From: Pontixanthobacter sp. CEM42
GTDB lineage: Bacteria; Pseudomonadota; Alphaproteobacteria; Sphingomonadales; Sphingomonadaceae
Assembly: GCF_017812015.1 (NCBI RefSeq)
Contig: NZ_JADQTN010000002.1
Span: 372,001-436,000 of the forward strand
DNA length: 64,000 bases
Reading direction: 5' to 3'
Positions 44,421-59,846 of this stretch are shown here, piece after piece (the stretch's first letter is position 1; each line of letters begins with the position of its first letter). A program made the position numbers and the translations under genes. The notes beneath the pieces were generated by a model, which was not told where the DNA came from, did not search any database, and saw only the letters and a list, made by a program, of their open reading frames with translations.

Positions 44421-44553
44421 CGATTCCATACTCCTGCCGGTCGATTGCATCTCCCATAGGCGCGCGTACCCGTTAGCGTCAAAGCACTTGGCCCGTGCTG
44501 CGCTTATCCCTATTGGCGGTCTGTGCCTTTTGAACCAACAGGTTGAAGGGTGA

Positions 44554-57654: not shown

Positions 57655-58500
57655 TCATATTGGTTTGGGCCCAATGCGCGGCGGAATTTCGCGCCGTTCG
57701 CGCTCACCAACCAGATTGATCACGGCTGCGGCCGTTTCTTCAATCGACCGACGGGTTACATCGATCACTGGCCAGCCATTATCCGCAAACATGCGTCGCG
57801 CGAATTTTACCTCTTCGCGAACGCGCTCGTCGTCGATGTAAGAGGTTTCGGAATTCTCATTCAAACTAAGCAGCCGGTTGCGGCGGATCTGGACCAACCG
57901 CTCGGGCGCCGTAGTGAGGCCGACAACAAGCGGGTTTTTGAGCCGGTACAAATTCTCGGGCGGCGGGCTTTCGATCACCAAAGGAATATTCGCCGTCTTA
58001 TACCCGCGATTGGCAAGATAGATGCTGGTTGGTGTTTTGGAGGAGCGTGAGACGCCTGCGAGCACGATATCGGCTTCTTCCCAATTGTCCGATCCAATCC
58101 CGTCATCATGTGCGATCGTATAATGGATCGCATCGACACGTTTGAAATAGGCGTCGTCCATCAAGTGCTGCCGGCCCGGACGACCATGTGCCTCTTGCCC
58201 CAATTGATCTTCAAGCGCTTCGGTTACGGCATCAATTGCAGGCACCGCAGGCAGGCTGAGTTGCCGACAGTGATCTTCCAGCCGTTCGCGTGTATCGGGG
58301 TTAACCAGAGTAAACAGAACAAGCCCGGGATTCGCGGCAAGCTCCGGTACGATCCGGTCCAAATGCTGTTTCGAGCGGACCATTGGCCAGAAGTGACGGA
58401 CAATGTCTGCATCCTCGAACTGCGCCAGCGCAGCTTTGGCAATCATTTCCAAAGTCTCGCCAGTCGAATCCGATACGAGATGAAGATGCAAACGGCTCAT
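57655..58500 (-). CDS. ppsR: Pyruvate phosphate/water dikinase regulatory protein (DUF299)
   Basis: Bifunctional kinase/phosphorylase of 281 aa that uses ADP to inactivate, and inorganic phosphate to reactivate, PEP synthase or pyruvate phosphate dikinase. The family start MSRLHLHLVSDSTGETLEMIAK and the P-loop-like GVSRSSKTPTSIYLANRGYK are clear. Which dikinase it regulates cannot be seen. ATG 58500 is well fixed by the family start. It is the first gene left of the presumed origin, divergent from hemE. Confidence 0.92.
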   Translation of the reverse strand: MSRLHLHLVSDSTGETLEMIAKAALAQFEDADIVRHFWPMVRSKQHLDRIVPELAANPGLVLFTLVNPDTRERLEDHCRQLSLPAVPAIDAVTEALEDQLGQEAHGRPGRQHLMDDAYFKRVDAIHYTIAHDDGIGSDNWEEADIVLAGVSRSSKTPTSIYLANRGYKTANIPLVIESPPPENLYRLKNPLVVGLTTAPERLVQIRRNRLLSLNENSETSYIDDERVREEVKFARRMFADNGWPVIDVTRRSIEETAAAVINLVGERERREIPPRIGPKPI

Positions 58501-58820
58501 GAAAGGAGGTCGTGTCCGGGCTGTGGATAGTGATTGGCATAAACCACGGGATAAAGCTGGCGACAAGTCGGAGGTGCGATTCCATGCCCAATGCGAGTCC
58601 TTGCCGAGTCAGTTTGTGGACAGCAAAGCTAGCTTTTCGACAGGTGCTGGATAACGTGGACAACAAACACTGGACTCGCATTTCTGCGGAGTCGCGATAT
58701 GCAAAACGCTGTTCAACGCGGGAGAAGTCGGACAAAGCCCGCTTGTCCCCGAAATCCACAGGGCCAACAGACTCCATCATCCTATTTATAATATAATATT
58801 ATTTAGTAAGAGGGCCTTCG
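58501..58820. other. Presumed chromosomal replication origin (oriC)
   Basis: This 320-bp gap between ppsR and hemE has no gene. It holds DnaA-box-like 9-mers: TGTGGATAG (58522-58530, one mismatch to TGTGGATAA), TGTGGACAG (58615-58623), the adjacent pair GCTGGATAA and CGTGGACAA (58646-58663) and AAATCCACA (58752-58760), each with two mismatches. A pure A/T stretch of 23 bp (58783-58805) could be the unwinding element. Six GANTC sites (CcrM methylation) lie at 58578-58774. The location beside hemE equals that of Caulobacter, and genes point away on both sides. Confidence 0.75.
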
Positions 58821-59846
58821 ATGCCAGGAATTCTCTTAGATACGTTGTGCGGAAACCGTGCTGAACAGACTCCGATGTGGCTGATGCGTCAGGCTGGCCG
58901 TTATCTTCCTGAATATCGTGAACTCCGCGCTGACAAAGGCGGGTTTCTCGAGTTGGTATACGATACTGATGGTGCAGCCGAGGTTACTCTGCAACCGATC
59001 CGCCGGTTCGGTTTTGATGGGGCAATCCTGTTTTCCGATATTCTGATCATTCCCTACGCGATGGGTCAGAAACTCGAATTTCTGGCAGGCGAGGGACCCA
59101 AGCTCTCACCCAGGCTTGTAGATCATGCTCTGAGTGACCTTAAAGCGGTGCCTGAGCGCCTTTTTCCAATTTATGACACTGTGGCTAAGGTGGTAGCCGG
59201 ATTGGGCTCTGAGACCACCATGCTGGGCTTTGCAGGCTCTCCATGGACTGTCGCGACTTATATGACCGCGGGCGAGGGTAGCCGCGATCAGCACGAAACC
59301 CGGGCGATGGCCTATCGTGATCCCCAAGCATTTGGCGCTATCATCGATGCAATCGGTGAAATGACGGTCGAATATCTAAGCGGTCAGATCAAAGCGGGCG
59401 CCGAAGCTGTGCAATTGTTCGACAGCTGGTCGGGCACGCTTGCACCGTCCGAGTTTGAGCGCTGGGTCATCGCGCCCAATGCGGCGATTGTATCCAAGCT
59501 CCGTAAAATCCATCCGGACACTCCGATTATCGGCTTTCCCAAAGGTGCAGGTGAGAAGCTGCCAGCTTACATTCGCGAAACCGATGTAGACGCGGCCGGC
59601 ATTGACGAGACTGTCGATCCTGTATGGGCAGCGAGTGTCCTTGCGGACGGGTTGCCCGTTCAGGGCAATCTCGATCCTTTGCTGGTGCTGTCGGGCGGTG
59701 AGGCGCTGGATATTGCAGCCAAGCGGATTCTTGAGGCTTTCGCTGATCGACCGCATGTGTTCAATCTGGGTCATGGTATCGGACAATTCACTCCAATTGC
59801 GCATGTCGAACAATTGGTCGAAACTGTCAGAAACTGGCGTGCTTGA
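58821..59846 (+). CDS. hemE: Uroporphyrinogen decarboxylase
   Basis: Heme-synthesis enzyme of 341 aa; it removes four carboxyl groups from uroporphyrinogen III to give coproporphyrinogen III. RQAGRYLPEYRELR, the FSDILIIPYAMG loop with catalytic Asp, GFAGSPWTVATYM and FNLGHGIGQFTP are characteristic. GAGGG lies 6 nt before the ATG. Its promoter must lie within the A/T-rich part of the presumed origin. It is followed by hemJ after 59 bp. Confidence 0.97.
   Translation: MPGILLDTLCGNRAEQTPMWLMRQAGRYLPEYRELRADKGGFLELVYDTDGAAEVTLQPIRRFGFDGAILFSDILIIPYAMGQKLEFLAGEGPKLSPRLVDHALSDLKAVPERLFPIYDTVAKVVAGLGSETTMLGFAGSPWTVATYMTAGEGSRDQHETRAMAYRDPQAFGAIIDAIGEMTVEYLSGQIKAGAEAVQLFDSWSGTLAPSEFERWVIAPNAAIVSKLRKIHPDTPIIGFPKGAGEKLPAYIRETDVDAAGIDETVDPVWAASVLADGLPVQGNLDPLLVLSGGEALDIAAKRILEAFADRPHVFNLGHGIGQFTPIAHVEQLVETVRNWRA

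Follow-up and report, generated by a model that had tools for sequence, protein, structure and literature searches.

In the accessible parts of the papers cited here and below, the origin of Caulobacter crescentus (Cori) is described as lying between hemE and a gene of COG1806, a location that was identified experimentally (PMC1914354), with dnaA very close by (PMC2217572). Its DnaA sites are mostly weak and are accompanied by an A/T-rich element and several GANTC motifs (PMC1914354, PMC4468827, PMC3973325). Origins on the hemE side are already published for Sphingomonadaceae: a predicted oriC in which gene order is conserved, and which has DnaA boxes and a proposed duplex-unwinding element, has been described for Sphingopyxis granuli TFA and, from DoriC, for other members of the family (PMC4741004), and the origin of Novosphingobium PP1Y is likewise near hemE (PMC4059872). 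According to the available text of PMC8116508, a position of dnaA near the origin is not conserved in Sphingomonadales.

The stretch analysed here (the window, 64,000 nucleotides, C2:372,001-436,000) belongs to a genome of 3,075,034 bases in two contigs, C1 (2,095,968 bases) and C2 (979,066 bases). Between ppsR, a COG1806 gene, and hemE, the same pair that bounds Cori, it harbors a 320-bp gap of 50.6% G+C (C2:430,501-430,820), which we propose, with a probability of roughly 95%, to be the oriC of the main chromosome and to belong to the alphaproteobacterial hemE type. Relative to the prediction for Sphingopyxis granuli TFA, the present case concerns another genus and draws additional support from parS, from polarity across the genome and from 73 sphingomonad gaps compared with one another, of which it is one. 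Fixing the origin matters for gene dosage and strand bias and provides a place for base 1 of the chromosome.

Like Cori, the gap combines mostly weak DnaA sites with an A/T-rich element and several GANTC motifs. Unlike Cori, it contains neither a CtrA site (TTAA-N7-TTAA, zero or one mismatch) nor a match to the IHF consensus WATCAANNNNTTR with up to one mismatch (a weaker IHF site may be present), and dnaA, the one Bac_DnaA match in the genome, lies 357 kb away on C2; we therefore assign the gap to the hemE-type origins and not to the CtrA-controlled form represented by Cori. Exact CtrA sites occur in one of the 73 sphingomonad gaps (a single site, in L103) and in six of 31 other alphaproteobacterial gaps, including three in an uncultured Caulobacter (L136).

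Sequence elements of the ppsR-hemE gap

A likely chromosomal origin between ppsR and hemE had been proposed in the sequence-only reading, which drew on the hemE-side location of the Caulobacter origin, the neighbors maf, aroE, coaE and dnaQ, transcription of all close neighbors away from the gap, a 23-bp run of only A and T, five DnaA-box-like 9-mers in both orientations and the lack of a notable coding frame. The proposal is borne out by the box cluster, the combined skew, polarity, parS and conservation, and most of its particulars hold: the gene pair is that of the Caulobacter origin, Pfam matches on the minus strand are ppsR (PF03618), Maf, shikimate dehydrogenase, CoaE and an RNase_T exonuclease, hemE is followed on the plus strand by UPF0093 and Rho, so that all of these genes face away from the gap, and the A/T run is present. 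Caulobacter presumably has maf, aroE, coaE and dnaQ arranged in this order too. The box cluster, its two orientations and its single-mismatch member stand as well, but the count is six, and frames of 94 and 159 aa do cross the gap. Gap lengths within the genus vary (320, 319, 329, 323, 325, 341 and 325 bp), and the differences of 1 to 21 bp between close relatives argue against a conserved frame across it.

Table 1. Features of the proposed origin and exact DnaA boxes elsewhere in the genome (window positions unless a contig is given).
Feature	Position	Strand	Basis or remark
Proposed oriC core, ppsR-hemE intergenic gap	58501..58820	.	box cluster, skew change-point, polarity, conservation
ppsR (COG1806/DUF299), left boundary gene	57658..58500	-	PF03618 1.2e-95; NF003742 above cut-off
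hemE, right boundary gene	58821..59846	+	PF01208 1.8e-107; TIGR01464 above cut-off
DnaA box 1, CTATCCACA, 1 mismatch	58522..58530	-	predicted; within-2-mismatch scan against TTATCCACA
DnaA-like box 2, CTGTCCACA, 2 mismatches	58615..58623	-	mismatch scan
DnaA-like box 3, TTTTCGACA, 2 mismatches	58634..58642	+	mismatch scan
DnaA-like box 4, TTATCCAGC, 2 mismatches	58646..58654	-	mismatch scan; adjoins box 5
DnaA-like box 5, TTGTCCACG, 2 mismatches	58655..58663	-	mismatch scan
DnaA-like box 6, AAATCCACA, 2 mismatches	58752..58760	+	mismatch scan; closest to A/T-rich stretch
Conserved non-DnaA-box block, TTGTCG-17-TTTATG	58538..58566	-	family alignment
Six GANTC (CcrM-type) sites	58578..58774; starts 58578, 58595, 58606, 58673, 58689, 58770	.	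motif scan
Six middle-T triplets (NAN on other strand, DnaA-trio-like)	58776..58793	+	15 bp after box 6
A/T-only run, 23 bp, proposed duplex-unwinding element	58783..58805	.	begins 22 bp after box 6
Exact DnaA box, 76 bp upstream of ftsZ	C1:346,909 (L196 at 1510)		
Exact DnaA box, 21 bp upstream of ccrM	C1:434,586-434,594 (L166)		
Exact DnaA box, 62 bp upstream of mipZ frame	C1:516,271 (L197 at 1472)		
Exact DnaA box, 296 bp upstream of rpsB	C1:662,362 (L198 at 1463)		

Box-like sites were defined as 9-mers with at most two mismatches to TTATCCACA on either strand. Four of the six in the gap are on the minus and two on the plus strand. In 3000 dinucleotide-shuffled versions of the gap the mean was 0.85 sites, and a single version had six; when the consensus was permuted instead, one word in 2000 had six sites there. 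Scanning C2:300,001-540,000 (240 kb) as 320-bp segments in 20-bp steps, we found the gap to be the sole segment with six, the runners-up at C2 353 kb and 516 kb having five. The single-mismatch box taken alone is not significant, at least one such box being present in 189 of the 3000 shuffles. Its GTGGA core is conserved in 21 of the 22 rows of a family alignment, which also has conserved blocks at CATAAACCACGGGA, in the stretch at 58634-58663 and at TCCACAGGGCCAAC ahead of the A/T-rich stretch. The block at 58538-58566, conserved in this alignment, is not a DnaA box and, judging from its letters, may well be the ppsR promoter.

The A/T-only run is the sole one of at least 14 bp in the window. 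Unbroken runs of that length are found in 20 of the 73 sphingomonad gaps and are thus not general, whereas in 70 of the 73 the A+T content, taken over 30 bp, peaks no farther than 70 bp from hemE, and in 48 a plus-strand box starts within 130 bp of the hemE start, at 63-124 bp before it; that box together with the A+T peak is the sturdier part of the opening architecture. The arrangement of box 6, followed by GGGCCAACAGACTCC as a 15-bp spacer and then by six NAN triplets, matches the box-spacer-trio rule (spacer of 0-16 bp, at least three NAN triplets) of the BUS module, which pairs a DnaA box with a DnaA-trio (PMC8287927). Among 48 sphingomonad gaps, this one included, at least three triplets are present in 17 and block shuffles are beaten at the 0.05 level in seven, with a mean of 2.44 triplets against 1.83 in the shuffles. 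Since the triplets are inconsistent in relatives, we do not claim DnaA-trios here. Shuffles of the whole gap were discarded as a control for the triplets because they lose the box, which makes the comparison unfair, and were replaced by the block shuffles.

The six GANTC sites compare with 0.66 expected per 320 bp from the surrounding 240 kb, and their methylation may affect the origin. Sphingomonad gaps contain 4.41 on average against 1.42 after shuffling (n = 73), with averages of 0.42-1.92 per gap for seven further palindromes built in this way, one of which, AGNCT, is also raised (1.92 against 0.88). A second dense cluster, with 7 GANTC in 320 bp, lies away from the origin at C2:476,900-477,420 (L080).

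Read as an origin, the gap suggests the following order of events. DnaA-ATP would first bind the better sites, box 1 (58522) and box 6 (58752), after which the weak sites at 58615-58663 would be filled cooperatively. An oligomer extending from box 6 could then open the A/T-rich stretch at 58776-58805, allowing helicase loading and the departure of two forks in opposite directions, to meet near C1 1.006 Mb. Segregation of the new origins would fall to ParB, bound to the parS sites clustered 8-11 kb right of the gap.

Strand bias, polarity and parS around the gap

When the GC-minus-AT skew of an uninterrupted 240 kb is divided into two means, the best split falls at C2 430 kb, the kilobase of the gap, and the cumulative minimum of this skew is at C2 429,413; bootstrapping of 1-kb bins with the switch set at 430 kb gives a 95% range of 420-441 kb. 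The sequence-only reading had suggested cumulative GC skew as a check, with a minimum elsewhere counting against the origin. The combined skew switches at the gap; GC skew taken by itself is locally lowest at C2:416,510, 14 kb to the left. GC skew within the 64-kb window was set aside as a locator, its minimum being at 44,510 and its course too flat to place the switch, so that a longer stretch and the combined skew were required. Beyond the 240 kb, GC skew was sampled in 44 stretches and has the expected sign in 40, being negative in 10 of 12 left of the gap and positive in 11 of 12 right of it on C2, and positive in nine of 10 and then negative in 10 of 10 along C1.

The word GGGCAGGG is polar in many bacteria. 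Polarity was followed with GGGCAGGG(C) over the whole genome and with GGGNAGGG in the samples. Because 100 of the 158 places of GGGCAGGG were listed (97 of these agree and three disagree) and all 82 of GGGCAGGGC, the latter was used for counts, and 81 of its 82 genome sites fit an origin at the gap with replication ending near C1 1.006 Mb. On C2, three of four sites left of the gap are on the minus strand (the disagreeing one is at C2:81,884) and all 16 to the right are on the plus strand, which bounds the origin to 408,181-456,985, an interval of 49 kb; on C1, all 45 sites up to 990,796 are on the plus strand and all 17 from 1,011,164 onward on the minus strand. Assuming that both contigs form one circle, the arms measure 1,554,964 and 1,520,070 bases.

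In Caulobacter, a parS cluster lies some kb from the origin. Here, the three exact parS sites of the genome are at C2 439,010, 441,117 and 441,500, 8.2-10.7 kb right of the gap, among frames that we take by recognition to be mnmE-mnmG-rsmG-parA-parB. An exact match to the reversed control word is found nowhere in the genome, but with one mismatch allowed parS has three places and the control five, so the weight rests on the exact matches and their clustering. Places were listed for 24 relatives, the further genomes searched having parS matches as well. In 20 of the 24, ppsR has at least one parS no more than 16 kb away on its own contig, and five of these 20 carry additional parS at a greater distance or on the opposite side. 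In three others (G017, G031 and G035) most or all parS are on contigs other than that of ppsR, one parS of G017 being 21 kb from ppsR on the same contig, and in G036, a single contig, both parS are close to the end opposite ppsR.

The GC-only minimum 14 kb away, the 49-kb polarity interval and the displacement of parS by 8-11 kb would also suit a gap consisting just of the divergent ppsR and hemE promoters, with DnaA-regulated transcription and the true origin within some 20 kb; promoter-like blocks are indeed conserved, TTGTCG-17-TTTATG toward ppsR and the A/T-rich stretch before hemE. We regard this as very unlikely, given that the change-point of the combined skew falls within the kilobase of the gap, that every other 320-bp segment of C2:300,001-540,000 has at most five box-like sites, and that the gene pair is that of an experimentally identified origin (PMC1914354). 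The two-contig assembly also admits two distinct replicons, C2 with an origin at the gap and C1 with another, a reading to which we give a negligible probability: GGGCAGGGC on C1 shows a terminus-type switch (plus, then minus) and no origin-type switch, C2 carries every parS and the only Bac_DnaA match, and joining C1 and C2 yields nearly equal arms.

For an oriC of the main chromosome at the gap, polarity in relatives was considered where the places of the words were at hand, namely in G027, G036 and part of G028, without G005 (same genus, a single contig of 2,888,119 bases), G022, G004 and G016. In G027, one contig from another family, all 47 sites run one way, with 29 on the plus strand (441,717 to 2,408,804) and then 18 on the minus strand (to 3,840,759), and ppsR is at 436,625-437,407; as the interval from the last minus to the first plus site across the contig end spans about half a megabase, the pattern is compatible with an origin at the gap at that resolution only. 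In G036, also one contig, polarity is noisy, the reversed control word being as common as the word itself, and the record starts 59 bases before the ppsR match.

Conservation of the gap among relatives

ppsR was found in 38 of the 40 genomes searched (this genome included), and the divergent ppsR/hemE gap measures 295-820 bp across the loci examined. In a first set of 30 loci, hemE is present in 29, always divergent and across a gap of 295-509 bp, the remaining locus being cut at a contig start; among 80 named loci from GTDB genomes it is present in 75, again always divergent. Three of the five loci lacking it end less than 550 bp from ppsR, where the sequence is cut.

Box-like sites average 5.33 per gap against 0.79 after shuffling in the 73 sphingomonad gaps, all of which exceed the shuffle mean, and 5.45 against 1.11 in the 31 other alphaproteobacterial gaps, of which 29 exceed it and one has no site; as the sequences are related, counts across gaps are not independent. 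Gaps were assigned to the 73 or the 31 from kinship, identity and titles (those of L103 and L107 name other genera, and those of L088, L098 and L120 no order), and the sets were left unthinned, L061, L095 and L097 being near-duplicates. An exact DnaA box occurs in 27 of the 73 sphingomonad gaps, so that weak-only boxes are not general. The 73 gaps compared constitute a resource for mutational work.

The other two loci lacking hemE, L113 and L160, have none within about 3 kb, and the 500 bp beside ppsR contain six and five box-like sites; the box cluster thus seems to stay with ppsR where hemE is elsewhere. The same 500 bp contain four and five GANTC.

Exact DnaA boxes at ftsZ, ccrM, mipZ and rpsB

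Exact DnaA boxes were tried as a guide to the origin and rejected, as none is present in the gap and those of the genome sit upstream of other genes. Four exact TTATCCACA boxes were found, all outside the gap (Table 1); at ccrM, two GANTC sites come immediately before the box, and the ccrM start follows it. Distances are given from frame starts; in the mipZ frame, 41 residues precede the Pfam match, and for relatives the starts were extrapolated from the tblastn match. ftsZ was assigned by TIGR00065, mipZ by PF09140 (NCBIfam gave just weaker ParA-type matches) and ccrM by PF01555 together with RAMA, its NF050803 score of 601 bits being below the model's cut-off of 830.

Ten relatives selected from the same family, representing eight genera, were searched by tblastn with the proteins of this genome. 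They contain 48 exact boxes, against 109 occurrences of the reversed control word. Nine of the boxes are 19-33 bp upstream of ccrM (in 9/10 relatives), eight are 76 bp upstream of ftsZ (in 8/10), six are 22-52 bp upstream of the mipZ match, which has 49-67% identity (in 6/10), four are 278-321 bp upstream of rpsB (in 3/10), and one is at the ppsR edge of the origin (in 1/10); the other 20 are without such a neighbor. The arrangement of exact boxes at these four genes is largely preserved in the ten relatives.

In Caulobacter, DnaA is reported to control ftsZ and mipZ (PMC3708114), and CtrA to control ccrM (PMC2217572). A scan for DnaA motifs at alphaproteobacterial cell-cycle genes reported little conservation except upstream of ctrA (PMC2877005), which argues against a general link between DnaA and ccrM; the word Erythrobacter does not occur in the accessible part of that text. 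In the open-access literature we found no DnaA box at ccrM in print.

For the family of the window, we tentatively suggest, at somewhat less than even odds, a ladder of DnaA affinities with the few exact boxes reserved for the promoters of ccrM, ftsZ and mipZ (and one upstream of rpsB) and with weak boxes plus conserved GANTC at oriC, in which DnaA would set CcrM and CcrM would in turn re-methylate the origin, closing a DnaA-CcrM-oriC loop. DnaA would thereby set CcrM directly, whereas Caulobacter uses CtrA for ccrM. The pattern holds in nine of the ten family relatives examined, and the exact boxes in 27 of the 73 wider sphingomonad origins limit the suggestion to the family of the window. 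If true, it could couple replication to methylation and division in bacteria without CtrA sites at the origin, a claim that can be tested.

Lastly, stretches upstream of ccrM were compared in a wider sample (n = 30, this genome included). An exact box is present in 15, and a box with at most one mismatch in 16, against 1.2 expected. Among the 16 closest stretches, 14 have the exact box.
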